A stretch of DNA of 64,000 bases from Pseudoduganella plicata (GTDB lineage Bacteria > Pseudomonadota > Gammaproteobacteria > Burkholderiales > Burkholderiaceae_D), in assembly GCF_004421005.1 (NCBI RefSeq), contig NZ_CP038026.1:4774001-4838000 (forward strand), read 5' to 3'. A program made the translations under genes and the position numbers. The notes under the pieces were generated by a model. That model saw only the letters and a list, made by a program, of their open reading frames with translations. It did no database searches and had not been told where the DNA came from. Shown one piece after another: positions 1 through 47,014 of the stretch (position 1 is the stretch's first letter; the number at the start of each line of letters is the position of its first letter).

Positions 1-506
1 AGTACTGGGATACCGGCCTTGGCCGCTGGCTGCGCGGCGATGCGTCGATGAACCGGCCCGTGCTCGAAGCGCTGGGCAATCCGGTGCAAATCGACTTGCG
101 CGACGTCGCCCCCGACCTGTCGCTGCCGATCGCCCAGGTCTGGCGCGACTGCCGCGCCGGGCTGGCCGATTTTGCCGGTTTCGGCGCCTCGGTCGAGAAC
201 CGCAAGCGCGCCGGCGCCGGCAATGTGGCGCTGAAGATGCTGCAGGACCTGGCCTGCCTGAACCACGTGGAAATGATGCCGTGGGACTTTGCCGCGCCGT
301 CGGCGCGCTTCCTGCGCTCGCGCCATCTGGACTTGCCGGCCTTCGACGCCCTGGCCGCGCTGATGCTGGAGGGCGACTGGCACGACTTGCTGTACGTGAA
401 CGGCCGACTGCCGTTTTTTGCGATACCGCGCCGCGTGTTGCGGCGCAGCCCCTACACGGGATGCAGTGTAACTCTGGTAAAGGATGGAATATGGATCACG
501 CAATGA
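1..506 (+). CDS. Transglutaminase-like protein, C-terminal part (5' truncated by window)
   Basis: Open from the first base; the first full codon is at position 3 and it reads YWDTGLGRW before the first internal Met at 48. The pattern YWD...GRW, then AWRDCRAG-like (here VWRDCRAG), FG, an Asn/Arg-rich stretch and LNHVEMMPWD matches the C-terminal half of bacterial transglutaminase-like proteins, where these blocks follow the catalytic Cys-His-Asp region. The catalytic Cys would lie upstream of the window. The stop at 504-506 overlaps the next gene's start at 491, which suggests it belongs to the same transcript as the PKS/NRPS cluster. Its role there is unknown: amide-bond formation or hydrolysis are possible, and this is inference. 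Family call is by motif memory only. Confidence 0.55.
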   Translation, partial: YWDTGLGRWLRGDASMNRPVLEALGNPVQIDLRDVAPDLSLPIAQVWRDCRAGLADFAGFGASVENRKRAGAGNVALKMLQDLACLNHVEMMPWDFAAPSARFLRSRHLDLPAFDALAALMLEGDWHDLLYVNGRLPFFAIPRRVLRRSPYTGCSVTLVKDGIWITQ

Positions 507-880
507 ACGACCAAATGATTGCCATCGTACGCTCGCTGTACACCGACGTATTCGACACCGGCAACTGTCCGGCCGTCAACAGCCACTATCACGACGATGC
601 GATCTGCCATTTCAACGGCAAGGACCTGAGCATCGAATCGCTGAAGTCGTCGATGCGCGACTTCGTCGAAGCCCATACGGATATCGAGACGAAGATCGAG
701 TCGGTATTCGCCAGCGGCGACCGTACCTTCGCGCGGCTGACGCGCAGCGTCACCGAGAAGGCAAGCGGCGTGCGGCGCCAGATCCAGCTGATGGTGGAAA
801 AACGCTTTGTCGGCAACAAGGTGCAGGAACTGTGGTTCATGGTCGATGACGAGCAGTACCGGACAACCTGGGACCGTTGA
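491..880 (+). CDS. NTF2-like / SnoaL-like small protein
   Basis: Encodes 129 aa. The layout (N-terminal helix with LYTDVFDTGN, then YHDDAICHFNGKDLS, a central helix and C-terminal beta strands ending in LWFMVDDEQY) fits the NTF2-like cone fold, which includes SnoaL-type polyketide cyclases, ketosteroid isomerases and many uncharacterised proteins. The start at 491 has an AGGA ribosome site about 8 nt upstream; an alternative ATG at 503 would give a 4-nt ATGA overlap with the preceding stop. The next gene starts 1 nt after the stop at 880, so it is tightly coupled to the KS-carrier-TE gene. A role as cyclase or dehydratase acting on the carrier-bound product is plausible but not shown by any diagnostic residue. 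Confidence 0.65.
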   Translation: MDHAMNDQMIAIVRSLYTDVFDTGNCPAVNSHYHDDAICHFNGKDLSIESLKSSMRDFVEAHTDIETKIESVFASGDRTFARLTRSVTEKASGVRRQIQLMVEKRFVGNKVQELWFMVDDEQYRTTWDR

Positions 881-881
881 G

Positions 882-3539
882 ATGACCGCACTAGCGCAGA
901 TGGACCACCGCATCGCGGTCATCGGGACGGCGCTGGCGCTGCCGGGCGCGGACTCGCTGGCCGGATTCGAGCGCATGGCGTTCGACGCCGCGGATGCGTT
1001 CTCGGCCCGGCCCGGCGCAGCCGCAGCCGGCGAGAACTGGGTCGACCGGGCCGCCTACCTGGACGACTGGTCCGGGTTCGACTATCGCCTGTATGGCTTG
1101 TCGCTGCGCGACAGCGTCATCATCGACCCCCAGCAGCGGCTGTTCCTGCAGCACTGCTGGAAGGCCGCCGAGGCGGCCGGCTACAACCCGCTGGCGCTGC
1201 CGGCCCGCAGTGCGGTGTTCTCGACTGCCTCCGACAGCGACTTCGTGCAGCTGGCACGCGCCGCGGCGGACGATGCCGGCAACTACCATCCGTTCGAGAT
1301 CGAGGTCGGCTCGAACAAGGAACAGCAGGCGCTGCGGGTGTCGCACGTGCTGAATCTGCGCGGCCCCAGCTTCGGGGTGCAGTCGGCCTGTTCCAGCGGC
1401 CTGCTGGTGCTGCACACGGCCATGCAGGCGCTGGCGCTGCACGACTGCGACCTGGCCCTGGCCGGTGGCGCCTGCCTGCCGTTCCCCCTGCACGAGGGCT
1501 ATGAATACCGCCCCGGCATGAATCTGTCGCGCAGCGGCGTGATCCGCTCGTTCGACCAGGACGCCGACGGCATGGTGCCCGGCTTCGGTTGCGTCGTCTT
1601 CGTACTGAAGCGGCTGGTGGACGCCGAACGCGACCGCGACCCGGTCCTGGCGGTGCTGGCCGCGAGCACACTGAACAACGATGGCAGCAACAAGGCCAGC
1701 TACGTGGCGCCCAGCTCGGCGGCCGTGGCCGAGAACCTGCAGGCGCTGCTGCGCAAGGGCGGCCTGGGGCCGGGCGCCATCGATTTCGTCGAGGCCCACG
1801 GTTCCGGCACCTACATTGGCGACGTGATCGAGGCGGCTGCGCTGCGCCAGGTGTTTCGCGCCAGTCCGCGCGCGGCGGCCGGCACCGCGGTGGCGTCGGC
1901 AAAGGCCTCGGTCGGCCACCTCGACACGGTGGCCGGGCTGGTCGGCCTGCTGCGCGCAATCGTCCAGATCGGCCGCGGCAGCATCGCGCCGGCGGCCAAT
2001 TTCACCGCGCTCAATCCGCGCATCAGTTTCGACGGGACCCCGCTGTACGTGCCGACCGCGGCCGTCGCCGCTAGCCGGCCACTCACCGGCATCGTCAATG
2101 CGCTCGGCATCGGCGGCACCAACTGCGCGCTGCTGGTCCAGTCGGCACCGCCGTCGCCGGCGGTGAGCGCGGCCGCGGGCGGCGTGCTGCCGGTGCGCGT
2201 GGGCGCAGGCAGCGCGGAACGCCTGCGCGCGGCCGTCGCACGCGCCGCTGCGGCACTGACCACCACGCACGCCGATTTCGAAGCAATCGCGTTTTCGTTG
2301 AACCGGCGTGCGCAGGGCAAACCGTTCCTTGCGCAGTTCGCGGCCGCCGACGCCAGCGCGCTGGCGGCCCAGATGGCCGCTTACGATGGCGCGGCCTTGC
2401 CGGCCACGGCGCCGCAGCCAGAGGTGGGCGCCGGCCCCCGCGCCGTCGACCTGGGCTGGAGCGAAATCGATCCGCAGGCGCGGGTCGGCCTGCCGCAGGC
2501 GCCCATGGCCGAGGTCGCGCCTGCCGGCGCCAACGATGCCGCCCAGCGCCTGCGCGCCATCTGGCAGTCGGCGCTGCTGCTGCAGGACGTGGCGCCGCAG
2601 ATGTCGTTCCGTGACGCCGGCGGCCATTCGATGCTGGCGCTGACGATGCTCGACGATATCAACGGGGCGTTCGGCACGCAGCACGACCTCGACTGGATCG
2701 ACCAGCACGACCGCTTCGACCAGCAACTTGCCGCGCTCGACGCGCCGTCCGGCCCTGCGCCGGCGACCCGTCTCGTCAAGCTGATCCGCCCCGCGCAGGG
2801 TACGCCGCGGCTGCGCCTGGTGCTGGTGCATGCAAGTATTTCGGGCTACGAAACCTACCGGCCGCTCGCGGCCCAGCTGGCGCCCGATATCGAACTGCTG
2901 GCGATCGATTCGCACAACCTGTATGCGGAGGAGGGGCAGCTGATCCGCGACGCGGCCGCGCTGGCCGCGCTGTATGCCGACCAGTTGCGCGCCGCGCTGC
3001 CGCAGCGCGCGGTGCCGCTGTACCTGGGCGGCTGGTCGCTGGGCGGCATGCTGGCGGACCTGATGGTGCCGTTGCTTGCCGCCGATTACCCGCTGTGCGG
3101 CACGGTGGCGATCGATTCGGTGGTGTACCGCGAGGAACATGCCGCGCTGTTCGCCGACAGCGCGCTGGCGTATTTCATGGACCAGACCAGCCTGCTGGCC
3201 GACCGCTTCGAGGCCGACCAGTTGCAGCGCCAGGCGCGCCGCCTGCAGCAGGTGTTCGCCGCCGAACGGGCGATGGCGCGCGCATTCGTGCCGGGTGGGC
3301 GGGAGCTGCCGTTCCTGAACATCGTTGCCGTCGGCACGCGTATGCCGCTCACCGAGCCGGCGCTGTTGCAGGCATTCGATCGCGCCAAGAACGACAACGG
3401 ATGGCGCCGTCACACGGGCGAGCCGATCGTGCGCATCGACGCCCACCACGTACAGATCGTCGATCCGGCCCACCTGGCCATGATCGCCTTGCACATCAAC
3501 CGATTCACGAGGTCCGCATGTACTACCACGTCATCCTGA
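882..3539 (+). CDS. Polyketide synthase: KS - carrier - thioesterase (no AT)
   Basis: Encodes 885 aa starting MTALAQMDHR. Ketosynthase: residues about 8-440, with active-site Cys170 in QSACSSG, His306 in EAHGSGT and His346 in KASVGH, so the C-H-H triad is intact. Carrier domain: about 545-610, phosphopantetheine Ser583 in GGHSM. Thioesterase: about 640-885, nucleophile Ser719 in GWSLGG, with an Asp in AIDSVVY and a His near the end in IDAHHVQI. There is no acyltransferase, ketoreductase or dehydratase, so extender units must be loaded in trans or the KS accepts an acyl chain differently. The TE makes this the likely last step of the line. It overlaps the Dabb gene by 22 nt. It may alternatively act early with the TE only for editing. 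Confidence 0.88.
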   Translation: MTALAQMDHRIAVIGTALALPGADSLAGFERMAFDAADAFSARPGAAAAGENWVDRAAYLDDWSGFDYRLYGLSLRDSVIIDPQQRLFLQHCWKAAEAAGYNPLALPARSAVFSTASDSDFVQLARAAADDAGNYHPFEIEVGSNKEQQALRVSHVLNLRGPSFGVQSACSSGLLVLHTAMQALALHDCDLALAGGACLPFPLHEGYEYRPGMNLSRSGVIRSFDQDADGMVPGFGCVVFVLKRLVDAERDRDPVLAVLAASTLNNDGSNKASYVAPSSAAVAENLQALLRKGGLGPGAIDFVEAHGSGTYIGDVIEAAALRQVFRASPRAAAGTAVASAKASVGHLDTVAGLVGLLRAIVQIGRGSIAPAANFTALNPRISFDGTPLYVPTAAVAASRPLTGIVNALGIGGTNCALLVQSAPPSPAVSAAAGGVLPVRVGAGSAERLRAAVARAAAALTTTHADFEAIAFSLNRRAQGKPFLAQFAAADASALAAQMAAYDGAALPATAPQPEVGAGPRAVDLGWSEIDPQARVGLPQAPMAEVAPAGANDAAQRLRAIWQSALLLQDVAPQMSFRDAGGHSMLALTMLDDINGAFGTQHDLDWIDQHDRFDQQLAALDAPSGPAPATRLVKLIRPAQGTPRLRLVLVHASISGYETYRPLAAQLAPDIELLAIDSHNLYAEEGQLIRDAAALAALYADQLRAALPQRAVPLYLGGWSLGGMLADLMVPLLAADYPLCGTVAIDSVVYREEHAALFADSALAYFMDQTSLLADRFEADQLQRQARRLQQVFAAERAMARAFVPGGRELPFLNIVAVGTRMPLTEPALLQAFDRAKNDNGWRRHTGEPIVRIDAHHVQIVDPAHLAMIALHINRFTRSACTTTSS

Positions 3540-3832
3540 TGCGCTTCGCGCCGGCCGTCACGGCGCAGCAGGCCGAGCACGCCCTGCATGCGCTGGGCCA
3601 GTTGCGCGCGCAGATTCCGCAGATGCTGTCCTATTCCTACGGGCCGAACGATCCGGACAACCCGCATCAGCGCGGTTTCAGCCACGGCTTCGTCATGGGC
3701 TTCGCGGGCCGCGCCGAACGCGACCTATACCAGCAGCACCCGGCGCACCTGGACTTCATCGGCACCCATCTGGAACCGCTGCTCGACGAAGCCGTCGTGT
3801 TCGACTTCGCCGACCTGGGCGGCCGCGCATGA
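3518..3832 (+). CDS. Dabb-family (stress-responsive A/B barrel) protein, possible polyketide cyclase
   Basis: Encodes 104 aa, starting MYYHVILMRF inside the end of the PKS gene and ending in a 4-nt overlap with the next KS gene. The sequence shows the Dabb ferredoxin-like pattern: HVILMRF at the N-terminus, then the block DLYQQHPAH (70-77). In plant olivetolic acid cyclase, a Dabb protein, the catalytic Tyr and His lie in the corresponding YxxHPAH block, and Tyr71 and His77 here align with them. That block is also common in Dabb proteins of other or unknown function. Being sandwiched between two ketosynthase genes favours a role on the polyketide intermediate, for example aldol or Claisen-type cyclisation; this is inference. 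Confidence 0.8.
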   Translation: MYYHVILMRFAPAVTAQQAEHALHALGQLRAQIPQMLSYSYGPNDPDNPHQRGFSHGFVMGFAGRAERDLYQQHPAHLDFIGTHLEPLLDEAVVFDFADLGGRA

Positions 3833-6687
3833 GCGCGCCCGTACACGAGCCGCTGGCCATCGTTGGCATGGCCTGTGCGTTGCCCGGCGCCGCCGATTAC
3901 GGGGCGTACTGGCGTGCGCTGGCCGATGGCGCTCCCGCGCTGGCGCAGGACACGGCGTATGCCGAACTGTTCGATCCGGCGCGCTACGGCATCACCGAGC
4001 AGGAGGCGCGCATCATGGACCCGCAGTGCCGCCAGTTCCTGATGCTGGCCGAAGCGGCCTTCGCCGACGCGGGTTACGAGCGGGGCCAGGGCATGGGCAA
4101 GGTCGGCGTGGTGGCCTCCCAGGCCTGCAACGGCACCTATCACGATTACCTCGCCACGCTTGCCGCGCAAGGTCATATCCCCTCGTTGCCGACGCTGCTG
4201 GAAAACGTCAACCGCGGCAGCGATTTCCTGGCCACGCGGGTCAGTTATACATTCGACCTGAACGGCCCGGCCTTCAACCTGCAAAGCGGTTGCTCGTCTT
4301 CGCTGGTGGCGGTCAGCGAAGCCTGCCACCTGCTGTGGAGCGGGCGCTGCGATGCCGTGCTGGCCGGCGGCGTGGCAATTACCTATCCGCTTGACGGTCA
4401 GTATGTGTACCAGGCCGGATCGATTTATTCCGAGGGCGGCGTGTGCCGGCCGTTCGATGCGCGGGCCGACGGTACCGTGCCGGCCGGCGGCGGCGGGGCC
4501 GTGCTGATCAAGCCGCTGGCGCAGGCGCTGCGCGACGGCGACCGGATCCATGCGCTGGTGCGCGGTGCCGGCGTCAACAACGATGGCGCGCGCAAGGTCA
4601 GCTTTGCCGCGCCGTCCAGCGACGGCCAGCTGGCGCTGCTGCGCGAGACGTACTCGGCGGCCGGCGTGGCGCCGGCACGGCTGGCGTTTGTCGAGTGCCA
4701 CGCGACCGGCACAGTGGTCGGCGATCCCATCGAAGTGCGCGCGTTACGGCGGCTGGTCGAAGCGTATCCGCCGGCGCAGCCGCACCGGCCGATCCTGCTC
4801 GGTTCGGTCAAGGGACATATCGGCCACCTGTTCTGGTCGTCCGGGATCGCGTCGCTGGTCAAGGCGGTGCTCGCCCTCGACCATGCGTGCTACCCGGGCA
4901 CGGCCAACCTCGAGACGCCGAATCCCCTGTTGAAGCTGAACGATTCGCCCTTCGCGGTGGCCGCCACGGCCAGCGTGCTCGACGTTGACACGCACGACTG
5001 CTGCGGCGTCAGTTCAATGGGTGTCGGCGGCACCAACGCCCACGTGATCCTGCAGCGCTACCAGGGGCAGCCTGGCAGCCGCGCCCGGCTGCCAGCGCCG
5101 GACTGGCAGTTGCGCCGCTTCAGCCTGGTCCCGGAAAAAGCCGCATCCGGCGTGGCCGCCGGCTCGGCCGCGGCGCTGCCAAAGGCGCCGCCGGGCGAGG
5201 CCCAGCTGTGCGCCGCCATCGTGGCGCTGTACGAGGAAGCGCTGTCCGATACCGGATTGGATGAAAACAGCAATTACTTCGACCTGTACGGCGATTCGAT
5301 CACGGCCATCACGCTGATCGACCAGCTGGACGCGCAATTCGGCATCGTGCTGACCCAGGACGATATCTATCAGCATCCGACGCCGCTGGCGCTGGCACGC
5401 CACCTGGTGACGAAGCTGGGGCGGGCGGCCGCGCCGGTCGCAGCGGAACCGCCGGCGCCCGCCGAGACGTGCCTGAATCCCTACCAGTCACGCTTTTACC
5501 TGCTGGAGAAGATGCAGCGCGGTGCCTACAGCCACTACAACGTTCCGCTGTGCCTGACCGGCGCCGTTGCGCCCGATTGGGAGCGGCTGAGCCAGGCGTT
5601 GCTGGCGGTGCTGGCCGCGCAGCCGTCATTTGCCCGTTGCCTCAAGTGGAACGCCGGCACGATCGAACTGGGACCGCCACGCGCGGAGCTGCTGGTCGCC
5701 GAGCGGCGCGAACTGGCGCCGGATGAAGACCCGGCGGCCACGTTGACGGCCTTCTTCGGCCATCGTTTCGGCCTGGAGACCGGGCCGACGGCACGCCTCT
5801 TGCTGCTGCGCCACGGCGCGCAGCACTATCTGGCCTTGAATTTCCCGCATCTGCTGATCGACGGCGTGGGCCTGGAAAACCTGCTGCGCGCGCTCGAACG
5901 CGCGCTGGCGGGGCAGAGCATGGCGGCCGTGGTCGCGCCGCCGGTGCGTGCCTGGGACGACGCCGACCAGCAGTTCTGGCGCGACCGGCTGGCCGGCGTC
6001 GCGCCCAGCACCCTGGCGGCGCGGCCGCCGCGCGGCGCCGGCAGTGCGCCGCAGTACCCGGCCGGCAGCGTCGAAGCCGTCGTGCCGCCCGCCCTGTATG
6101 GCGCGGCGCGCGCCGTCTGCCGGGCCAACAACTGCACGCCATTTGTCCTGTACTACGCCATCTTCAATGCGCTGGTGGCGCAGCAAAGCGGGGCGCGCCA
6201 TGTCTTGACGGGCACGACGCTGAACAACCGCGACGGCGCCGCCCTTCAGCGGATCGACTGCCGCATCAACAACCTGCCGCTGCACGTGCCGGTCCAGGAC
6301 GCGCACGACTACGGCGCGATCCTGGCGGCGACCGCCAGCCAGTTGAGCGCCGCATTGCAGCACGCGGCGGTGCCGCTCGACGTGATCGTGCAGGCCGCCG
6401 GGGGCGGCGTGCCTTACCGCATGCTGTTCATGTTCCAGAACCAGAACGACGGCTACCGGCTGGAACTGGACGGCGCGGTGTGGCGCGAGGGTGGCTGCCG
6501 CTACCAGCCGGTGTATGGCGAACTGTGTTTCCAGTTCAAGGCGGACGCCGGCGACGGGCTGCGGCTGGTCGTTCACCATGACCCGGACTATCACAGCCAG
6601 GCGGATGCGGACAGCATGATCGTCGCGTTCTTCGCGCTCGGCACCCAATTCACCCATCATTTACTGGAAGCTGACCGCCATGCTTAG
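3829..6687 (+). CDS. Hybrid PKS/NRPS: KS - carrier - condensation domain (no AT)
   Basis: Encodes 952 aa. Ketosynthase: about 8-415, Cys155 in QSGCSSS, His291 in ECHATGT, His333 in GHIGH, ending GVGGTNAH. Carrier: about 460-530, Ser490 in GDSIT. NRPS condensation domain: about 545-952, with His674 and Asp678 in PHLLIDG, where the first His of the usual HHxxxDG is Pro but the catalytic second His is kept. Again there is no AT. The C domain sits directly before the separately encoded A-carrier protein, so the natural reading is that the polyketide chain made by this KS is passed to the amino acid on the next protein as an amide. It overlaps both neighbours (ATGA at 3829, 8 nt at 6680). Confidence 0.88.
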   Translation: MSAPVHEPLAIVGMACALPGAADYGAYWRALADGAPALAQDTAYAELFDPARYGITEQEARIMDPQCRQFLMLAEAAFADAGYERGQGMGKVGVVASQACNGTYHDYLATLAAQGHIPSLPTLLENVNRGSDFLATRVSYTFDLNGPAFNLQSGCSSSLVAVSEACHLLWSGRCDAVLAGGVAITYPLDGQYVYQAGSIYSEGGVCRPFDARADGTVPAGGGGAVLIKPLAQALRDGDRIHALVRGAGVNNDGARKVSFAAPSSDGQLALLRETYSAAGVAPARLAFVECHATGTVVGDPIEVRALRRLVEAYPPAQPHRPILLGSVKGHIGHLFWSSGIASLVKAVLALDHACYPGTANLETPNPLLKLNDSPFAVAATASVLDVDTHDCCGVSSMGVGGTNAHVILQRYQGQPGSRARLPAPDWQLRRFSLVPEKAASGVAAGSAAALPKAPPGEAQLCAAIVALYEEALSDTGLDENSNYFDLYGDSITAITLIDQLDAQFGIVLTQDDIYQHPTPLALARHLVTKLGRAAAPVAAEPPAPAETCLNPYQSRFYLLEKMQRGAYSHYNVPLCLTGAVAPDWERLSQALLAVLAAQPSFARCLKWNAGTIELGPPRAELLVAERRELAPDEDPAATLTAFFGHRFGLETGPTARLLLLRHGAQHYLALNFPHLLIDGVGLENLLRALERALAGQSMAAVVAPPVRAWDDADQQFWRDRLAGVAPSTLAARPPRGAGSAPQYPAGSVEAVVPPALYGAARAVCRANNCTPFVLYYAIFNALVAQQSGARHVLTGTTLNNRDGAALQRIDCRINNLPLHVPVQDAHDYGAILAATASQLSAALQHAAVPLDVIVQAAGGGVPYRMLFMFQNQNDGYRLELDGAVWREGGCRYQPVYGELCFQFKADAGDGLRLVVHHDPDYHSQADADSMIVAFFALGTQFTHHLLEADRHA

Positions 6688-8434
6688 TGGACGCATCACC
6701 TCGGGCTATCCCGACTTCATCGCGCGCTTCGACGGCGCGGCCGCACGCTGGCCGGAACGCACCGCCCTGCGTTGCGGCACGCTGGAATGGACCTACGCCC
6801 AGTTGCGCCAGCAGGCCATCGACAGCGCCGCGCTGCTGGCCGGCCTGACGCTGGCGCCGGATGCGGCTGTGCTGTTGTGCCTGCCACGCGGCGCGGCGCT
6901 GCTGGCGGCCATGATCGGCTGCCAGTACCTCGGCGTGCCGTACATTCCGATCGGCTGGAGCACACCGCCCGCACGCCTGCAGCAGATGCTGGGCGCGCTG
7001 CCCGGCAGCGTGGTACTGCACGACAGCGCCAGCCCGTCCCATCCGGGACTGTCCGGCATCGGTGCCGGGGTTGCCCTGGTCGACCTGGCCGCGCGCAACG
7101 CGGGGCAGCCGCGACCTGCGCATGCCGGCGGCCGCGAGGCCTACCGCATCTTCACGTCCGGCTCGACCGGCGTGCCGAAGGCGGTGATGGTCACCACGCT
7201 AGCCTGCGCCAACCTGCTCGACCATTTCAGCGTGCTGCTGGCCGACCACGCGGCGCCGCTGGTACTGTCCAGTACATCTCCCGGCTTCGATATCTTCTAC
7301 CTGGAATATGCGTTGGCCCTGGCGAATGGCGCCACCCTGGTGCTGGCCGACGAGCAGCAGGCCGCTTCGCCCCAGGCGCTGGCGCGCCTGCTGACGACGC
7401 TGCGACCCGCGCTGTACCAGTCCACCCCATCCCTGCTGAAATGCCTGCTGCCCTATCTGGCGCCGGACTATCGCTTCGATACGGTGCTGGTGGGCGGGGA
7501 GGCGCTCGGCCAGCAGCTGTCAGGCACGCTGTTCGCCCGCGCGCGTCACGCCTACAACGTGTACGGCCCGACGGAAACCACGGTGTGGTCGACATGGATG
7601 CGGCTGGAGGCACCGGGAGAGCGCCGGATCGGCGTGCCTATCCAGAACACCCTTATAGCTATTGTCGATGCCGACGGTCGCGCCGTGGCATCGGGCGAGT
7701 CAGGCCGACTGCTGATCGGTGGTGACGGCCTGGCGCTCGGCTATCTCGGCCAGCCGCAACTGACTGCTGAAAAATTCGGCCACGCCATGCACGATGACGT
7801 GCTGTGGTACGACACCGGCGATATCGGCTTCATCGACGCCGATGGCCTGCTCAATTTTGTCACCCGCGCCGGCGACTACGTAAAGGTCAACGGTCACCGC
7901 ATCGAATTGCTCGAAGTCAGCGACGCGCTCGAAGCGCTGCCGTTCGTGGCCGAGGCCGCCGTGTTGTGCGTGCGCGACCGGCATGACGTGGACACGCTGG
8001 CGGCGTTCATCAAGACCGATCCCCGCACGCCGTGCGCGGACCCGGTCGGCAGCGCCCGTGCCGAGCTGGCACGGCTGCTGCCGGCGTATATGCAGCCGCA
8101 CAGCCTGACGGTGGTCGCCGATTTTCCGCGCAACAGTGCCGGCAAGCTCGATCGCAAGGCGCTGGCGCCGCTGGTGCAGGTTCCGGTGACGCCGGCCAGC
8201 CCGGCGACTGGCCTCGCCGGCGATATCGCGGCGCTGCTGGCGCCTTACCTGAACGTATCGCGGCTGGGCCCGGACGACAACCTGTTCGCCCAGGGGCTGA
8301 CGTCGATGCACGCCGTGTCGTTCCACCTCGACCTGGCGGCGCACTGGCCGCACATCGAGCTGTTCCATGTTTTCGAGCATCCCACGCTATCGCGTCTGTC
8401 GGCCCTGGCGGCCGAGCAGCCGTGCACGGCATAA
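6680..8434 (+). CDS. NRPS adenylation - peptidyl carrier protein, predicted glycine-activating
   Basis: Encodes 584 aa. Adenylation domain about 15-500 with core motifs TSGSTGVPK (A3), YGPTETT (A5), YDTGD (A7) and SAGKLDRKAL (A10). Carrier domain about 510-575 with Ser542 in GLTSM. Hand alignment to the GrsA pocket gives D-I-L-Q-L-G-V-V-W-K; the Asp in GFDIFYLE marks an alpha-amino-acid substrate. This is 8 of 10 to the remembered glycine signature DILQLGLIWK. There is no condensation domain here; it is at the C-terminus of the preceding protein, so the module C-A-PCP is split over two proteins. It overlaps the preceding gene by 8 nt. Confidence 0.88.
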   Translation: MLSGRITSGYPDFIARFDGAAARWPERTALRCGTLEWTYAQLRQQAIDSAALLAGLTLAPDAAVLLCLPRGAALLAAMIGCQYLGVPYIPIGWSTPPARLQQMLGALPGSVVLHDSASPSHPGLSGIGAGVALVDLAARNAGQPRPAHAGGREAYRIFTSGSTGVPKAVMVTTLACANLLDHFSVLLADHAAPLVLSSTSPGFDIFYLEYALALANGATLVLADEQQAASPQALARLLTTLRPALYQSTPSLLKCLLPYLAPDYRFDTVLVGGEALGQQLSGTLFARARHAYNVYGPTETTVWSTWMRLEAPGERRIGVPIQNTLIAIVDADGRAVASGESGRLLIGGDGLALGYLGQPQLTAEKFGHAMHDDVLWYDTGDIGFIDADGLLNFVTRAGDYVKVNGHRIELLEVSDALEALPFVAEAAVLCVRDRHDVDTLAAFIKTDPRTPCADPVGSARAELARLLPAYMQPHSLTVVADFPRNSAGKLDRKALAPLVQVPVTPASPATGLAGDIAALLAPYLNVSRLGPDDNLFAQGLTSMHAVSFHLDLAAHWPHIELFHVFEHPTLSRLSALAAEQPCTA

Positions 8435-8455
8435 CCATTCATCCAAGGAGAGTTC

Positions 8456-9010
8456 ATGAAATCGCTGCACATTGCCGCCCTGACGCTGGCGGTCCTGGCC
8501 AGCCCGCTGGCCGCCGCCCACGGTCCCAAGTCGCAAGTCATCCATGCCAAGACGGCGGAGGCGGTGAAGTTCGGCCCCGACCTGACCGACATCCAGATCC
8601 TGATTCCGAACGACGACGGGCAGGGTACGATGACGGCCGGGACCGAACGCCTGCCGTCCAAGGTCAGTATTCCGGTGCATTTCCATCCCGGCACGGAGGA
8701 ATTCATCTATATCGTCGAAGGCGAGGGTGAGGCGTCGCTCGACGGCGAGGTGAGCAAGGTGACGGCGGGCGACATCATCCTCATCGCGCCCGGCACCCAT
8801 CACGGCCTGAGCAACACCGGCACGGGCACCCTGAAAATGCTGTGGAGCTACAACAACAAGAAGATGGTCGACTTCTTCCGCGAATTCAGCTTCAAGGACG
8901 CGGCCGACCGCGATGCGCGCGCCACCCGCGCGTATTGGGATGTGCTGGCCGAAAAGTACAAGAGCGCGATCGTCCTGCTGCCGCCACCAGGGGGCGCCAA
9001 GCATGACTAA
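8456..9010 (+). CDS. Cupin-domain protein with signal peptide
   Basis: Encodes 184 aa. The N-terminus is a Sec signal peptide (MKSLHIAALTLAVLASPLAAA, cleavage near residue 21), followed by a single cupin barrel: VHFHPGTEEFIYIVEGEG is the first metal-binding motif (two His and Glu), and GDIILIAPGTHHGLSN the second with a His. The metal ligands therefore appear complete. A good AAGGAGA ribosome site precedes the ATG. It is unusual for a compact PKS/NRPS operon, because the product is predicted to act in the periplasm. It could be a late tailoring or dioxygenase enzyme, or a protective binding protein; the fold does not decide. It overlaps the next gene by 8 nt. Confidence 0.8.
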   Translation: MKSLHIAALTLAVLASPLAAAHGPKSQVIHAKTAEAVKFGPDLTDIQILIPNDDGQGTMTAGTERLPSKVSIPVHFHPGTEEFIYIVEGEGEASLDGEVSKVTAGDIILIAPGTHHGLSNTGTGTLKMLWSYNNKKMVDFFREFSFKDAADRDARATRAYWDVLAEKYKSAIVLLPPPGGAKHD

Positions 9011-10154
9011 GGACAGCATCCTGGCCAATGTGCGTCGCCTGCTGCCCGAGCTGGCGGCCGCGCCCGACCTTGAGGCAGGGCATACGCTGCCGGCCTGGGT
9101 GGTGGCGCGCCTGAAGGAGGCAGGTTGTTTCCGCATGTGTATGCCGCGCAGCTGGGGCGGTCCCGAGCTGACCACGCTGGAGCAGCTGGAGATCATCGAA
9201 GCCTTGGCGAGCGTCAGCGCCTCGGTGGCCTGGTGCGTGATGATCGGTTGCGATTCGGGCCTGTATTCGGGCTACCTGGAGGATGGCGCGGCACGCGAGC
9301 TGTATGGCTCGCTGGATGCGGTACAGGCCGGCTGGGTTTATCCGGGCGGGCGCGCTATCGAAACCGACGGCGGCTACAAGGTGACCGGGCGCTGGATTTT
9401 CGGCAGCGGCATCAAGCACGCCGACGTGATCGGTGCCGGTTGCCTGATCTACGAACACGGCAGCCCGCGGCTGGACGAGGGGCGGCCCGAATGGATCGTG
9501 GTGCTGGGCAAGCAGGGCGACTTTGAAATCGAGGACAACTGGGATACCACCGGCCTGCACGGCACCGGCAGCCACAACTATCACGTCAAGGGCGGATTCT
9601 TCCCGCGTGCGCACAGCTTCAGCTTCCGTCAGCCGGCGCAGCGGGCCGGCCTGCTGTGGCAACGCAACGATACCTTCCTGCGCAAGATGGCCGCCGTACC
9701 GCTGGGCGTGTGCCGCTCGGCCCTCGATTTCACGCATGGCTACCTGAAGGAGCGGCAGGATTTCAATACCCGCACGCCGCTGCGCAATTCGCCGATCGTC
9801 CAGCACAAGCTGGCCGAGTGCGAGATGAAGCACAATGCCGCCCGTGCCTACCTGTACCGTACGCTGGAACGCCAGTGGCAGTGCCTGGAAAACGGCGAAG
9901 TGCCGGACGAGCGCTTGCGCGCGGACGTCTGGCTGTCGCGCGTGAGCGCGTTCCGCACGTCGCGCGAAGTGATTCTGGCGCTGTACGACCTGGTGGGCGG
10001 GCCGGCAATCCGGCGCGGTGAGACCCCCATCGAGCGGGCGATGCGCGATTCCCTGACGTGGTGCCAGCACCTGGTGGGCAAGGAAAGCGGGTACGAGGCG
10101 GTCGGCAACCTGCTGCTGAATGGCAATGTGGCGGAAGGATTCCCGATGCTGTAG
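9003..10154 (+). CDS. Acyl-CoA-dehydrogenase-like flavoprotein
   Basis: Encodes 383 aa. The sequence follows the acyl-CoA dehydrogenase / group D flavin monooxygenase fold: an N-terminal helical part (LPAWVVARLKEAGCFRM, PRSWGG), a central barrel containing GGYKVTGRWIFGSG and a GLHGTGSHNY block resembling the GLRGTGSxD of this family, and a C-terminal four-helix bundle with FRTSREVILALYDLVGG. In secondary metabolism such proteins dehydrogenate carrier-bound aminoacyl or acyl groups, or hydroxylate with a reductase. I cannot tell which; no partner reductase is visible. Its start overlaps the cupin stop. A G+C-rich imperfect hairpin directly follows the stop, but without a T-tract. Confidence 0.75.
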   Translation: MTKDSILANVRRLLPELAAAPDLEAGHTLPAWVVARLKEAGCFRMCMPRSWGGPELTTLEQLEIIEALASVSASVAWCVMIGCDSGLYSGYLEDGAARELYGSLDAVQAGWVYPGGRAIETDGGYKVTGRWIFGSGIKHADVIGAGCLIYEHGSPRLDEGRPEWIVVLGKQGDFEIEDNWDTTGLHGTGSHNYHVKGGFFPRAHSFSFRQPAQRAGLLWQRNDTFLRKMAAVPLGVCRSALDFTHGYLKERQDFNTRTPLRNSPIVQHKLAECEMKHNAARAYLYRTLERQWQCLENGEVPDERLRADVWLSRVSAFRTSREVILALYDLVGGPAIRRGETPIERAMRDSLTWCQHLVGKESGYEAVGNLLLNGNVAEGFPML

Positions 10155-10302: not shown

Positions 10303-11028
10303 GTGGCAAGCGATAAAATTTTCCGTTGGCAAGAGCCTTTCATGCAGGTGCTGGAGGTGGTAAAGAGCGAAGCCGAGGTACTTGAAGTACTCATCGCGGC
10401 GGTGCTGGAGCTGGGGTTCGAATACTGCGCTTTTGGCGTGCGCTGGCCCCTGCCTGTCATCAGGCCGGCGGTGTCGATGATCTCCAACTACCCGGAATCC
10501 TGGCGGCAGCGTTATCTGGAAAGGAATTACCTTGCGTGCGACCCCACGGTGGCCCATGGCCTGACGTCGCAGACAGCGCTGGTCTGGTCAGATCAGGTAT
10601 TCGCGGCAGCGCCAGCGCTGTGGGACGACGCCCGCGACCATGGCTTGCGCGTCGGCGTGGCGCAATCGTCCTACAATGCACGGGGCGTAGCCGGCCTGCT
10701 GACGGTCTCGCGTTCGCACGAGCAGCTCGGCGAGGCCGAGCTGCGCGAGCATGCCGCGCACTTGTGGTGGTTGTCCCAGGCCGCGCTCGACGCGATGTCG
10801 CGGGTGGCGCCGCAGAGTGGCCGGGTCGAGGCCGACATCTGCCTGACGGCGCGCGAAGTGGAAGTGTTGCGCTGGAGTGCGGACGGCAAGACCGCCAGCG
10901 ATATCGCGGAAATCATCCAGATCACCGAGCGCACGGTCGGCTTTCACATCAACAATGCGCTGCTGAAGCTGGGCACTGCGAACAAGACGGCGGGCGTGAT
11001 CAAGGCCGCGCTGCTGCGCCTGCTGTGA
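10303..11028 (+). CDS. LuxR-type transcriptional regulator with AHL-binding domain
   Basis: Encodes 241 aa from a GTG at 10303 with a TGAGGT ribosome site 4 nt upstream; an ATG at 10342 is the alternative. The N-terminal autoinducer domain keeps the acyl-homoserine-lactone pocket: Trp67, Tyr71, Asp80-Pro81 and Trp95 in the spacing WxxxY...DP...W. The C-terminal HTH (about 177-240) has LTAREVEVLRWSADGKT and ITERTVGFHINN. No luxI synthase is in the window, so it is either a LuxR solo or its synthase lies to the left. It lies between the biosynthetic genes and the PPTase in the same direction, so it probably controls this cluster. A TACAAT sequence at 10230-10235 may be a -10, with no clear -35. 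Confidence 0.88.
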   Translation: MASDKIFRWQEPFMQVLEVVKSEAEVLEVLIAAVLELGFEYCAFGVRWPLPVIRPAVSMISNYPESWRQRYLERNYLACDPTVAHGLTSQTALVWSDQVFAAAPALWDDARDHGLRVGVAQSSYNARGVAGLLTVSRSHEQLGEAELREHAAHLWWLSQAALDAMSRVAPQSGRVEADICLTAREVEVLRWSADGKTASDIAEIIQITERTVGFHINNALLKLGTANKTAGVIKAALLRLL

Positions 11029-11045
11029 CGGCGCCGGCCCGTTCC

Positions 11046-11729
11046 ATGCTGCTCGCGCCGACCCCGGGTGCGGATGGGGCGCTGGAGCTGTTCTACACAA
11101 CGTTCGACACGGCGCACTTCGACGTGGCGTGTTTTGCCGAACATGCCATCGTGCTGCCGCCGGCACTCGCGCACGCGGTGCCGAAACGCCAGGGCGAATT
11201 CTTTTTTGGCCGCTGGTGCGGCCGTGCGGCGCTGGCGTATCATGGCCGCGAGGGCACCATCGGCGTCGGGCCGGCGCGCGAGCCGCTCTGGCCGCGTGGC
11301 GTTACCGGCAGTATCACTCATAGCCACGGCATCGCCGCCGCAGTGGCAGTGCCCCGGTCGACGTGCCGCGGGGTTGGCATCGATATCGAGACTGTCGCCC
11401 AGGGCCGCAGCCTGCAGGCATTGCGCCAGGTCGTGCTGTCGGCCCGCGAGCGCGCCTGGCTGGCGGCGCTCGACTGTCCGATCGCGCCCGACACGTTGCT
11501 GACGCTGGTGTTTTCGGCCAAGGAGAGCTTCTACAAGGGCGTATTCGAGACCGTGCGGCGCTTCCTCGACTTCGACGCGATCGAGATCGTTGGCATCGAC
11601 ACCGAAGGGCGGCGCTTGTGGTTTGACGTGGTGCACCCGCTCGACCCGCCGTTCGTGCCCGGGTTCAGGTTTGCGGTCGGCTACACGCTGCTGGAGCAGG
11701 GGCGCGTGATGACCGATTTCCGGTGGTGA
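11046..11729 (+). CDS. 4'-phosphopantetheinyl transferase (EntD/Sfp type)
   Basis: Encodes 227 aa from ATG 11046; an in-frame GTG at 11025 would overlap the luxR stop by 4 nt (GTGA) and add 7 residues, and neither start has a clear ribosome site. Diagnostic motifs are present: GVGIDIE at 109-115, which binds Mg-CoA, and FSAKESFYK at 156-164 with Lys159, Glu160 and Lys164. The N-terminal region with KRQGEFFFGRWCGRAAL is typical of the EntD branch. It transfers phosphopantetheine from CoA to Ser583, Ser490 and Ser542 of the three carrier domains upstream, making the cluster self-sufficient for carrier activation. Confidence 0.92.
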   Translation: MLLAPTPGADGALELFYTTFDTAHFDVACFAEHAIVLPPALAHAVPKRQGEFFFGRWCGRAALAYHGREGTIGVGPAREPLWPRGVTGSITHSHGIAAAVAVPRSTCRGVGIDIETVAQGRSLQALRQVVLSARERAWLAALDCPIAPDTLLTLVFSAKESFYKGVFETVRRFLDFDAIEIVGIDTEGRRLWFDVVHPLDPPFVPGFRFAVGYTLLEQGRVMTDFRW

Positions 11730-25160: not shown

Positions 25161-26636
25161 ATGTCTGAACCCATCCGTTTTTATTACCGCGGCGCCGTGC
25201 ACGAAGTGCGCGATGCCGCTCCCACGCAGACTGTTTTGCAGCATCTGCGCGAGGACCTGCACTGTACCGGCACCAAGGAAGGCTGCGCCGAAGGCGACTG
25301 CGGTGCCTGCACTGTGGTGCTGGGCACGGTGGTGGACGGCCGGCTGGAGCTGAAGGCCGTCAATTCCTGCATCCAGCTGACGCCCACGCTGGACGGCAAG
25401 GCGCTGTTCACGGTGGAGGACCTACAGCAGCCGGACGGCGCGCTGCATCCGGTGCAGCAGGCGCTGGTCGAGTGCCACGGCTCGCAGTGCGGCTTCTGCA
25501 CGCCGGGCTTTGCGATGTCGCTGTGGGGCATGTACCTGAAGCTGGACGGCCAGGCGCCGCAGCGCAAGCAGATCGACGACTGCCTGTCCGGCAATCTGTG
25601 CCGCTGCACCGGCTACCGTCCCATCATCGACGCGGCGCGGCGCATGACTGAGCTGCCGCGCGTGACGTTCGACACGGCGCAGCTGACGGAACAACTGGCG
25701 GCGCTGAAGCGCGACCGCCTGGCCGTCTACAGCGCGCACGGCCAGACGTTCCTGGCGCCGCGCACGCTGGACGAGTTGATCCAGCTGCGTGCCGCCAACC
25801 CGGCCGCCACCTTGCTGGCCGGCTGCACGGACGTGGGCCTGTGGATCACCAAGGGACTGCGCGAACTGAACGACATCATCTATCTTGGCCACGTCGATGC
25901 GCTGAAGACCGTGACGGAGCGCGACGGCATGATCGAGATCGGCGCCGGCGTATCGCTGGAGACCGCGTACGGCGCGCTGTGCCGGCACTATCCGCAGGAA
26001 CTGGGCGAGATGCGCCAGCGCTTTGCCTCGCTGCCGATCCGGAATGCGGGCACCCTGGGCGGCAACGTCGCCAACGGTTCGCCCATCGGCGACTCGATGC
26101 CGTGGCTGATCGCACTGGGCGCGCAGGTCGTGCTGTGCGGCGCGGGCGGCGACCGCGTGCTGGCGCTGGAGGATTTTTACCTGGATTACATGAAGAAGGA
26201 CCTGCAGCCGGGCGAATTCGTGCGCGCCGTGCGCGTGCCGCTGCGCCGTCCGGAGGTTGCGTTCCGCACGTATAAACTGGCGAAGCGCTTCGACCAGGAT
26301 ATCTCGGCCGTCTGCGCCGCCTTCGCGTTCACGCTGGACGGCGACACCATTGGATCCGCCCGCATCGCCTTCGGCGGCATGGCCGCCACGCCGAAGCGGG
26401 CCCGCACGGCCGAAGCGCTGCTGGCCGGCCGCCGCTGGGACGAACCCGCGCTGAAGGAAGCGATGGCAGCGTTGGCGCTGGATTACGCGCCGCTGTCGGA
26501 CATGCGCGCGTCCAGCGGTTACCGGCTGCGCAGCGCGCAGAACCTGCTGCGCCGCTTCTGGCTGGAGACGCGTCCCGATGCGCCGCTGGCTGCCAGCGCC
26601 GTCAACGCTTTCGCCTGCGTGAAGGAGCTGTCATGA
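25161..26636 (+). CDS. xdhA: Xanthine dehydrogenase small subunit XdhA
   Basis: Encodes 491 aa with GAGG 5 nt before the ATG. N-terminal plant-type [2Fe-2S] domain with Cys37?-type pattern CTGTKEGCAEGDCGAC (Cys35, 42, 47, 50) and Cys70; second [2Fe-2S] helical domain with CHGSQCGFCTPG and CLSGNLCRCTGYRP; then the FAD domain from about 190 with LLAGCTDVGL, IRNAGTLGGNVANGSPIGDS. It passes electrons from the molybdenum subunit to NAD. The stop overlaps xdhB by 4 nt. Confidence 0.96.
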   Translation: MSEPIRFYYRGAVHEVRDAAPTQTVLQHLREDLHCTGTKEGCAEGDCGACTVVLGTVVDGRLELKAVNSCIQLTPTLDGKALFTVEDLQQPDGALHPVQQALVECHGSQCGFCTPGFAMSLWGMYLKLDGQAPQRKQIDDCLSGNLCRCTGYRPIIDAARRMTELPRVTFDTAQLTEQLAALKRDRLAVYSAHGQTFLAPRTLDELIQLRAANPAATLLAGCTDVGLWITKGLRELNDIIYLGHVDALKTVTERDGMIEIGAGVSLETAYGALCRHYPQELGEMRQRFASLPIRNAGTLGGNVANGSPIGDSMPWLIALGAQVVLCGAGGDRVLALEDFYLDYMKKDLQPGEFVRAVRVPLRRPEVAFRTYKLAKRFDQDISAVCAAFAFTLDGDTIGSARIAFGGMAATPKRARTAEALLAGRRWDEPALKEAMAALALDYAPLSDMRASSGYRLRSAQNLLRRFWLETRPDAPLAASAVNAFACVKELS

Positions 26637-29011
26637 ACCATCCCGTCACGCCTGAACTGACCGCGCCCTGGACGGCCGTCGGCGTCGCGCGCCCGCATGA
26701 ATCGGCCGAGCTGCACGTCCTCGGCCAGGCCACGTATACGGACGATATCCCGGAAGTGCAGGGCACCCTGCACGCGGCATTGGGCCTGTCGTCGAAGGCG
26801 CACGCGAAAATTCTCAACCTGGACCTGGCGCCCGTGCTGGCCTGCCCCGGCGTCGTGGCCGCGTACACGGCTGGCGATATTCCCGGCACCAACGACTGCG
26901 GCCCGATCATCCACGACGATCCGATCTTCGCGGTGGACGAAGTGCTGTACGTGGGCCAGCCCATCTTCATCGTGGTGGCCGATACGCATACGAACGCACG
27001 GCGCGCCGCGCGCAAGGCCGTCGTCACGTACGAAGAACTGCCGGCCATCCTGACGCCGCAGGCGGCCAAGGCGGCCGGCTCCTACGTGCTGCCGCCGATG
27101 CGGCTGCAGCGGGGCGATGCGCAGGCCGCGTTCGAGCGCGCGCCGCACGTGGTGCGGGGCGAGCTGTTCGTCGGCGGCCAGGAGCAGTTCTACCTGGAAG
27201 GCCAGATCGCGTACGCGATCCCGAAGGAGAACCGCGGCATGCTGGTGCAGTGCTCGACGCAGCACCCGAGCGAGATGCAGCACGTCGTCGCGCATGCGCT
27301 GGGACTGCACTCGCATCACGTGACCGTCGAATGCCGGCGCATGGGCGGCGGCTTCGGCGGCAAGGAGTCGCAGTCGGCGCTGTGGGCAGCGGCGGCAGCG
27401 ATCGCGGCCGCGCTGACGAAGCGTCCCGTGAAGCTGCGCGCGGACCGGGACGACGACATGCTCGTCACCGGCAAGCGCCACTGTTTCTACTATGAATATG
27501 AAGTGGGCTACGACGATGCCGGCAAGATCGTGGCCGCCCGTGTCGACATGACGTTGCGGGCCGGCTATTCCGCCGACCTGTCCGGCCCTGTCGCCACGCG
27601 TGCCGTCTGCCACTTCGACAATGCATATTATTTGTCGGACGTGGACATCCGCGCCGGCTGCGGCAAGACCAACACGCAGTCCAACACGGCGTTCCGTGGC
27701 TTCGGCGGACCTCAGGGCGCGATCGCCATCGAATACGTCATCGACGAAATCGCCCGCAACCTAGGGCGCGACCCGCTCGATATCCGCCGCGCCAATTACT
27801 ATGGCAAGAGCGAGCGTAACGAAACGCCGTACGGCCAGGTCATCGTCGACAACGTCCTTGACGAGTTGACTGCGGAACTGGAAAGCACCAGCGCCTACCG
27901 CGAGCGTCGCGAAGCCATCGCCGCATTCAACGCCACCAGCCCCGTGCTGAAGAAGGGCCTGGCGCTGACCCCGGTCAAATTCGGCATCGCCTTCAATGTC
28001 ACGCACCTGAACCAGGCGGGCGCGCTGGTGCACGTGTACGTGGACGGCTCGGTACTCGTCAACCATGGCGGCACGGAGATGGGGCAGGGCATCAACACGA
28101 AAGTGATGCAGGTCGTCGCGCATGAACTGGGTGTGGACATGTGCCACGTACGCGCCAGCGCGACGGACACGGGCAAGGTCGCCAACACGTCCGCCACGGC
28201 CGCCTCCACAGGCGCGGACCTGAATGGGAAGGCGGCGCAGGATGCGGCGCGCCGGATCCGCGAGCGGCTGGCAGCCTTCGCGGTGAAGCAGTACGGCGGC
28301 GACGTGGCGGCGGTGCGCTTCCACAATGACGCCGTCCACGTCGACGGCCACGCCGTACCTTTCCCGGAGCTGGTGCAGAAAGCCTACCTGGCGCGCGTGC
28401 AGCTGTGGTCCGATGGCTTCTATGCGACACCCGGCCTGCACTGGGATCCGAAGACGATGACCGGCCACCCGTTCTCGTACTACTCATACGGTGCCGCCGT
28501 CTCGGAGGTCGTCGTCGATACGCTGACGGGCGAATGGAAGTTGCTGCGCGCCGATGCGCTGTACGACGCAGGCGCCTCGCTCAACCCCGCCATCGATATC
28601 GGCCAGGTCGAAGGTGCCTTCATCCAGGGCATGGGCTGGCTGACGACGGAGCAGCTGTGGTGGAACGATGCGGGCAAGCTGATGACGCATGCGCCGTCGA
28701 CGTACAAGATCCCCGGCATCTCCGACTGCCCGGAAGATTTTCGGGTACGCCTGTTCGACAACCGCAATGTCGAGGACAGCATCCATCGCTCCAAGGCGAC
28801 GGGCGAGCCGCCGCTGCTGCTGCCGTTCTCCGTCTTCTTTGCCATCCGCGACGCGATCTCCAGCGTGGGCGAACACAAGGTTAACCCGCCGCTGAACGCC
28901 CCCGCGACGAGCGAAGAAATTTTGCGCGCCATCGACGCCGTGCAGGTTAGCGTTTCCTCAAAACAGGGGTCTGTCCCGGGTTTTGTGTCCCGGGTTTTTG
29001 CCGATGAATGA
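26633..29011 (+). CDS. xdhB: Xanthine dehydrogenase large (molybdenum) subunit XdhB
   Basis: Encodes 792 aa. Molybdopterin-binding subunit with ATYTDDIPEVQGTLHAALGLS at the start, GGQEQFYLEGQIA, RMGGGFGGKESQ, FRGFGGPQGAIAIEYVIDE and GTEMGQGINTKVMQVVA; the catalytic Glu is expected in the C-terminal TGEPPLLLPF region. It oxidises hypoxanthine and xanthine to urate. The last residues, after AIDAVQ, are encoded by an intergenic repeat (28960-28999), giving the tail VSVSSKQGSVPGFVSRV... that is not family sequence. This tail overlaps the xdhC start by 8 nt. Confidence 0.95.
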   Translation: MNHPVTPELTAPWTAVGVARPHESAELHVLGQATYTDDIPEVQGTLHAALGLSSKAHAKILNLDLAPVLACPGVVAAYTAGDIPGTNDCGPIIHDDPIFAVDEVLYVGQPIFIVVADTHTNARRAARKAVVTYEELPAILTPQAAKAAGSYVLPPMRLQRGDAQAAFERAPHVVRGELFVGGQEQFYLEGQIAYAIPKENRGMLVQCSTQHPSEMQHVVAHALGLHSHHVTVECRRMGGGFGGKESQSALWAAAAAIAAALTKRPVKLRADRDDDMLVTGKRHCFYYEYEVGYDDAGKIVAARVDMTLRAGYSADLSGPVATRAVCHFDNAYYLSDVDIRAGCGKTNTQSNTAFRGFGGPQGAIAIEYVIDEIARNLGRDPLDIRRANYYGKSERNETPYGQVIVDNVLDELTAELESTSAYRERREAIAAFNATSPVLKKGLALTPVKFGIAFNVTHLNQAGALVHVYVDGSVLVNHGGTEMGQGINTKVMQVVAHELGVDMCHVRASATDTGKVANTSATAASTGADLNGKAAQDAARRIRERLAAFAVKQYGGDVAAVRFHNDAVHVDGHAVPFPELVQKAYLARVQLWSDGFYATPGLHWDPKTMTGHPFSYYSYGAAVSEVVVDTLTGEWKLLRADALYDAGASLNPAIDIGQVEGAFIQGMGWLTTEQLWWNDAGKLMTHAPSTYKIPGISDCPEDFRVRLFDNRNVEDSIHRSKATGEPPLLLPFSVFFAIRDAISSVGEHKVNPPLNAPATSEEILRAIDAVQVSVSSKQGSVPGFVSRVFADE
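28960..28999. repeat. Repeat unit of the GGGGTCTGTCCC family inside the xdhB 3' end
   Basis: AAAACAGGGGTCTGTCCCGG and a second GTGTCCCGGGTTTTT copy sit in tandem. The core matches the terminal repeats of the elements at 43086 and 62189. Here it is translated as part of XdhB. Confidence 0.65.
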
Positions 29012-29987: not shown

Positions 29988-29991
29988 AGAT

Positions 29992-31299: not shown

Positions 31300-31323
31300 C
31301 CTTCCTCACACACAGGAGCCGTC

Positions 31324-44312: not shown

Positions 44313-44316
44313 GATC

Positions 44317-46922: not shown

Positions 46923-46946
46923 AGGATTTTCAGGTGGTTGTTACTG

Positions 46947-46984
46947 AAAAACGCGCCGCAGGAGAATGCCCCTGCGGCGCGTTT
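46947..46984 (-). terminator. Attenuating terminator between the BMP gene and the ATPase gene
   Basis: A perfect 14-bp stem (46949-46962 with 46971-46984) around an 8-nt loop ends in five T's on the - strand. It lies inside the transporter operon, so it should reduce expression of the ATPase and permeases relative to the binding protein. Confidence 0.85.
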
Positions 46985-47014
46985 CTACGGGAAGTCCCGA
47001 TCGTTAGAGGATGG

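Follow-up and report, generated by a model that had tools for sequence, protein, structure and literature searches.

The andrimid (adm) pathway is known from Serratia and Vibrio, and its AdmK, AdmM, AdmO, AdmP and AdmS proteins have been assigned to the valine-succinimide warhead in the paper on butuanimide, a related compound (PMC13151354). The butuanimide (btm) cluster was published in April 2026 from Teredinibacter sp. 2052S, a shipworm bacterium; the same paper gives moiramide B, from 1994, as the last earlier natural product of the class, and describes the btm family as a singleton, known to date from a single Teredinibacter strain (PMC13151354). Serratia marcescens MSU97 and Vibrionales SWAT-3 are reported to be andrimid producers (PMC5334600, PMC3559943). 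Here we describe a gene cluster at the left edge of a 64,000-nucleotide stretch of the Pseudoduganella plicata genome (the window; C1:4774001-4838000 of a 5.89-Mb genome in one contig). Very probably, this cluster encodes a butuanimide-type pathway of the andrimid class.

The cluster spans about 22 kb and consists of a continuous set of 21 genes (g01 to g21), all on the + strand. Its start lies at L003:9325, some 10.7 kb before the window begins, and its end at window position 11729 (L003 and L004 denote left-flank stretches, and L003 ends at the window start). Adjacent genes between g01 and g19 either overlap or are separated by no more than 21 bp, and these genes form one operon. All 21 reading frames are open. 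The genes in the window are the right-hand half of the cluster, which the window edge interrupts. The initial annotation, made on the window alone, had therefore called the cluster “compact”, although at 22 kb it has ketoreductase (KR) and dehydratase (DH) genes of its own. The genes listed in that annotation are all present according to Pfam, namely those for ketosynthase (KS)-carrier-thioesterase (TE), KS-carrier-condensation (C), adenylation (A)-carrier, transglutaminase-like, NTF2-like, Dabb, cupin and acyl-CoA-dehydrogenase-like proteins, with the close spacing noted above. The observation is thus confirmed, and the kind of pathway is most likely one already known. Its gene content, gene order, homology, adenylation codes and intact residues are observed directly.

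Homology to the andrimid pathway and likeness to the butuanimide cluster

The adm reference was the annotated plasmid copy of Vibrio coralliilyticus, with the upstream adm genes compared through locus L075. Eight genes are reciprocal best hits (BLAST, 30–58% identity) to adm genes K, S, L, M, N, O, P and R. The adenylation-carrier protein g11, left of the window, corresponds to AdmK (40%). The 305-residue transglutaminase homologue g12 crosses the window edge (L004:7589-8506, or window -411 to 506, with its 3′ part at 1..506) and corresponds to AdmS (36%). It is followed by g13 (488..880; SnoaL/NTF2 fold, PF07366), which corresponds to AdmL (58%), and g14 (882..3539; KS-carrier-thioesterase by Pfam), which corresponds to AdmM (41.5% over 884 columns). 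Further along are g15 (3518..3832; Dabb, PF07876), matching AdmN (42%), g16 (3829..6687; KS-carrier-condensation by Pfam), matching AdmO (39% over 962 columns), and g17 (6680..8434; adenylation-carrier), matching AdmP (40%). The last gene, g21 (11025..11729), encodes a 4′-phosphopantetheinyl transferase that matches AdmR (30%), with EntD-like and related models scoring below their cut-offs. Weaker reciprocal matches were found for g02 with AdmA, g04 with AdmE, g05 with AdmH, g06 with AdmD and g08 with AdmC. AdmB, AdmG, AdmI, AdmQ and AdmT have no BLAST counterpart among the cluster genes, and AdmJ has no reciprocal best hit, as its top match, g11, prefers AdmK. Apart from the letters named in the butuanimide text, the Adm letters were assigned by gene order.

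Gene order and adenylation codes agree with these matches. The genes K-L-M-N-O-P are collinear here, and the admS-type gene sits between K and L. In MSU97 and SWAT-3, two of 11 loci from a scan of named genomes, A-carrier, NTF2, KS-carrier-TE, Dabb, KS-carrier-C and A-carrier genes follow each other in the same order as g11 and g13 to g17. The code of g11, DAFWLGGVFK, agrees with the valine code of AdmK, DAFWIGGVFK, at nine of ten positions, and that of g17, DILQLGVVWK, is identical at all ten to the glycine code of both AdmP proteins compared; the AdmJ code, DMLSLGAMCK, is unlike either. The reciprocal best hits identify the transglutaminase, NTF2 and Dabb proteins as counterparts of AdmS, AdmL and AdmN, which makes core pathway proteins of what had been seen as an “unusual tailoring set”. 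The composition had also been taken as undescribed, that is, as a hybrid polyketide synthase (PKS) and nonribosomal peptide synthetase line that has no acyltransferase (AT) and is unrelated to known products. The absence of adm counterparts for g18 and g19 favors such a line, but eight reciprocal best hits and matching adenylation codes make it very unlikely.

The btm cluster was compared with this one through the text of its paper, and on that footing its composition, and its order by lettering, equal those of g05 to g17 (PMC13151354). Both have an ammonia lyase and an aryl-polyene-type PKS as the polyene maker, homologues of AdmK, L, M, N, O and P in the same lettered order, and a transglutaminase-like class, which for btm appears in a figure legend (PMC13151354). 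Both are without admI and admJ, and in both the genes for acetyl-CoA carboxylase (acc) are unduplicated (PMC13151354). The two differ in tailoring: the btm genes include four oxidative ones and the product is a halogenated epoxyquinone (PMC13151354), whereas here the candidates are the cupin g18, the HsaA-like flavin protein g19 and perhaps a divergently oriented FAD monooxygenase. The words Massilia and Burkholderia are absent from the butuanimide main text (PMC13151354), and no published description of the present cluster was found in the literature searched. A close match to a characterized cluster with a known product had been named in the initial annotation as evidence against its reading, and the adm homology and btm composition largely amount to one.

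Several features differ from andrimid. The polyene half is of aryl-polyene type; there is one transglutaminase homologue, of the AdmS type, where adm has two; a LuxR gene stands here, while a LysR gene adjoins the Vibrio cluster; the beta-phenylalanine set (AdmH-type mutase, AdmI, AdmJ and AdmF) was not found; and neither was an AdmT-type resistance copy of accD in this cluster. A true andrimid or moiramide pathway using beta-phenylalanine could be argued from the collinear K-to-P core and from a lyase 32% identical to AdmH. However, with no AdmI counterpart, no reciprocal best hit or code of the AdmJ type, a single transglutaminase homologue and lyase selectivity residues unlike those of AdmH, it is the least probable of the readings considered here.

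A protein search with g14 gave 72 matches. Among them are relatives in Massilia sp. YMA4 (88%), Burkholderia vietnamiensis (62%), B. ubonensis (60%) and a Legionella metagenome-assembled genome (MAG; 52%), followed at about 40–47% by proteins of Serratia, Photorhabdus, a Pseudomonas and others. In a KS tree of 26 of the 72 matches (two as outgroups) with AdmM, AdmO and g16, this lineage falls together with those of YMA4, Burkholderia and Legionella (94/95), outside the andrimid clade. The main texts of two papers on Massilia sp. YMA4 do not contain the words andrimid or arylpolyene. In Serratia quinivorans, a KS-carrier-TE protein (P0012) and a transglutaminase homologue (P0204), both at 44%, occur on a contig of 1,550,249 bases, with the KS outside the andrimid clade; this pair may represent another variant of the class.

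The lyase and the aryl-polyene enzymes

The initial annotation found no KR or DH, which holds inside positions 1 to 10154. Directly left of the window, on the same strand and in the same operon, there are a KR, two dehydratases, a second short-chain dehydrogenase/reductase (SDR), a KS, an acyl carrier protein (ACP) and a second A-carrier protein, as well as an ammonia lyase, an AMP ligase and an aryl-polyene-type chain-length factor. In order, g01 encodes the chain-length factor (KS2-type), g02 the ACP, g03 the AMP ligase, g04 a FabA-like dehydratase slightly below the Pfam cut-off, g05 an aromatic amino acid lyase (an ammonia lyase of the MIO, or methylidene-imidazolone, type), g06 a FabF-type KS (type II), g07 an ApeP-like dehydratase barely above its Pfam cut-off, g08 the KR, g09 the SDR and g10 a MATE pump. 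The KS, the chain-length factor and one dehydratase match models or structures of aryl-polyene (APE) type. The nearest solved structure to g06 is 6qsp_A (7.4e-84), and the solved structures give g01 no match other than 7f28_A and 6qsp_B; 6qsp is the aryl-polyene KS/chain-length-factor pair ApeO/ApeC. No solved relative of g07 was found among the structures searched.

By BLAST, g05 shares about 32% identity with AdmH; its identity is 59–64% to lyases of Kangiella, Pseudidiomarina and Vibrio and to one lyase of SWAT-3, which is taken for the aryl-polyene lyase of that strain. A tree was made of 49 lyases, consisting of 46 of the 120 listed (P0074-P0122 minus P0075, P0086 and P0088) with g05, AdmH and the SWAT-3 lyase. 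In it, g05 nests among lyases taken for APE ones, in a 13-row clade (100/99) that also holds five lyases tied to KS-carrier-TE relatives. These ties were drawn from contigs of equal size, with six agreements in size, five of them from the same source. At the lyase selectivity site, Phe-His occurs in 9 of 14 aligned proteins, including g05, Tyr-His in two, Phe-Leu in one (P0076) and Ala-Val in both AdmH proteins. Histidine at this site goes with tyrosine use in characterized lyases, and for g05 tyrosine is the more likely substrate than phenylalanine.

Elsewhere, aryl-polyene-type enzymes make pigments alone, and the left half of this cluster consists of such enzymes. This raises the alternative of two pathways side by side, in which a pigment cluster on the left adjoins a warhead pathway on the right that begins from an acyl starter of its own. 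APE pigment clusters carry an MMPL exporter, LolA and an acyltransferase. This set for anchoring and export is unseen here, with none of the three annotated among the cluster genes scanned, and valine is the predicted destination of the acyl chain. Moreover, g01 to g19 are one operon with the valine A-carrier gene and the transglutaminase homologue in its middle, the five lyases tied to KS-carrier-TE relatives share a clade with g05, and btm provides a precedent for the combination (PMC13151354). Two separate pathways are thus improbable.

Proposed biosynthesis and product

All of the chemical steps and the target of the proposed pathway are predictions from the genes. The lyase g05 would deaminate an aromatic amino acid, the AMP ligase g03 would load the resulting (hydroxy)cinnamate on the ACP g02, and the KS g06 with the chain-length factor g01, the KR g08 and the dehydratases g04 and g07 would build an aryl polyene on the ACP. 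This polyene would be coupled by g12 to valine held by g11. The KS of g16 would then add malonate, its C domain would join glycine from g17, and the KS of g14 would add a second malonate as the last extension. Finally, the TE of g14 would release the methyl-succinimide warhead, with g13 and g15 taking part. The succession first proposed, of acyl starter, extension, amide formation to an amino acid, second extension and TE release, fits this andrimid warhead logic. The predicted product is an aryl-polyenoyl-valine-methylsuccinimide that inhibits acetyl-CoA carboxylase, with the carboxyltransferase of that enzyme as the target; it is very probably a colored polyene antibiotic that shares the active end of andrimid.

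The KS modules have no AT in the cluster, as was first noted. A PF00698 search of the genome found two proteins, both distant, at 1.536 Mb and 3.498 Mb; by the neighbors listed, lepA and rpoE for the former and malonate decarboxylase genes for the latter, these look like FabD and the AT of malonate decarboxylase. The malonyl units would come from an AT acting in trans, for which the FabD-like protein is the simplest candidate. The catalytic residues had been described as all visible. The KS cysteine and two histidines, the carrier serine and the presumed TE serine, aspartate and histidine are indeed invariant in 22 of 22 aligned KS-carrier-TE relatives (of the 72 matches of the g14 search), and the carrier of g17, uncalled by Pfam, is visible as a GLTSM site. 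In the C domain of g16, the HxxxDG part is intact (H674), but the first histidine of HHxxxDG is replaced by proline.

This proline is one of several observations that weigh against the assignment. In g12, glutamine stands where AdmF has histidine; the same replacement, giving Cys-Gln-Asp versus Cys-His-Asp, is found in 17 of 17 AdmS-type proteins aligned (P0207, one of 16 matches, was left out). The fork of the KS tree that places lyase-bearing lineages relative to the andrimid clade is left unsettled (80/46). Nor is tyrosine use fixed in the 13-row lyase clade, since one of its members, P0076, carries Phe-Leu at the selectivity site in place of Phe-His. P0179, the sixth lyase, has a contig equal in size (5,020) to that of a KS-carrier-TE relative, but has a different source and falls outside the clade. 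In the Legionella MAG, which may be incomplete, no aromatic lyase was found at E 1e-40, and warhead genes may therefore not always accompany an aryl polyene. In addition, an acetyl-CoA carboxylase inhibitor might require a resistance copy of accD, and none was found in or near the cluster in a PF01039 search of the genome. The four proteins from this search were assigned by their neighbors or their length. The first, at 2,274, follows genes for a cysteinyl-tRNA synthetase and a DNA glycosylase and is taken as AccA; the second, at 2.016 Mb, adjoins trpA and has the size of AccD; the third, at 3.781 Mb, is a 545-residue carboxyltransferase; and the fourth, at 3.501 Mb, has malonate decarboxylase genes next to it.

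A contig of the Legionella MAG (JACCWN010000074.1; L037:5019-17681) has an AdmK-to-P-type set, next to which lie an ACP, a carotenoid oxygenase of the RPE65 type and a divergent transglutaminase homologue of the AdmS type. These genes may possibly make a warhead capped with a carotenoid-derived polyene.

Within the pathway as proposed, g19 and g18, and perhaps the divergent FAD monooxygenase, would modify the product. The protein g18 (8456..9010) is a cupin (PF07883) with a hydrophobic N-terminus and a candidate for tailoring or protection. The protein g19 (9003..10154), a candidate tailoring oxygenase, is an HsaA/Rv3094c-like flavin protein (PF08028) that scores under the cut-off of the HsaA model and has Rv3094c as its nearest solved relative. 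The FAD monooxygenase-like gene (L003:8021-9181, minus strand) adjoins g01 divergently and may be a ring hydroxylase of the pathway or a mere neighbor. The cupin and the two flavin proteins could each modify the ring. No halogenase-family gene was found in the cluster. Three genes of the tryptophan-halogenase family occur elsewhere in the genome, at C1:3717452-3722079 and 2401138-2402535.

The MATE pump g10 would export the product, and g20 (10342..11028), a LuxR-type regulator with an autoinducer-binding domain (PF03472, PF00196; Pfam run from the alternative start 10303), would control the cluster. The btm product is under quorum sensing (PMC13151354), and the LuxR gene hints at the same here. 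Two LuxI-family matches lie outside the cluster, the second of them weak (26.7 bits, cut-off 24). No 20-bp palindrome was found at 16/20 in the two intergenic stretches 5′ of g01 and g20.

Solanimycin was considered as another relative, as SolG and SolL models matched g11, g17 and g10. It was rejected, since the scores were far below the cut-offs and that pathway has a 5,358-residue trans-AT PKS and an AT-AH protein, with no lyase in its table.

A more specific proposal is put forward tentatively, with somewhat less than an even chance of being right. In it, the product would be a new, unhalogenated (hydroxyphenyl)polyenoyl-valine-succinimide inhibitor of acetyl-CoA carboxylase, the distinct Cys-Gln-Asp class of AdmS proteins would form the polyene-valine bond, and the producer would protect itself without a second carboxyltransferase, perhaps through a last activating or inactivating step by g18 or g19.

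Probable insertion, spread and significance

The cluster seems to have been inserted at a conserved site. A MutT gene lies 23.9 kb from zapD here, but at most 1.4 kb from it in seven of seven other loci of the genus (seven loci compared, of 15 other genomes with a match), with an ATPase gene behind in six of the seven. The G+C content is 67–68% in the cluster versus 64% in its flanks. The whole cluster was found in 2 of 74 genomes of the genus, this one and a second (G310), in the same place and with proteins 74–96% identical (g18, 91%; g19, 96%); the DNA match continues through the FAD monooxygenase-like gene. The g17 gene of G310 has one apparent frame change near residue 290 (L054:6850 region, G310:C1 ~964850), either a sequencing error or real.

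This rarity in the genus and the frame change in G310 would suit a silent or decaying cluster without a product. Against this, every frame is open here, the catalytic residues are kept and the proteins are 74–96% identical between the two genomes, so this reading has little probability. At the family level, matches at E 1e-60 were found in 40 of 294 genomes, where, except in this genome, no listed place extends past residue 595 of 885. At E 1e-120, one of 369 genomes of the class matched, again this one. Among 920 plasmid records, one, of V. coralliilyticus, has at least 80% query coverage.

Elsewhere in the window, xanthine-dehydrogenase-like, deaminase-like and nucleoside-transport-like frames at 25161-32781 and 43341-48010, judged by eye, suggest a purine salvage locus.

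Four things are new here compared with the known systems: the host lineage, a tailoring set of a different kind, the lack of a resistance copy and, in AdmS-class proteins, a Cys-Gln-Asp signature. As the glutamine is common to all 17 AdmS-type proteins aligned, the role of AdmS becomes directly testable. A complete second cluster of btm composition, from an unrelated order and in a one-contig genome, represents another possible producer. It can also serve as a control to tell which oxidative genes are part of the ring chemistry, and as a test case for the survival of producers that lack a second accD.

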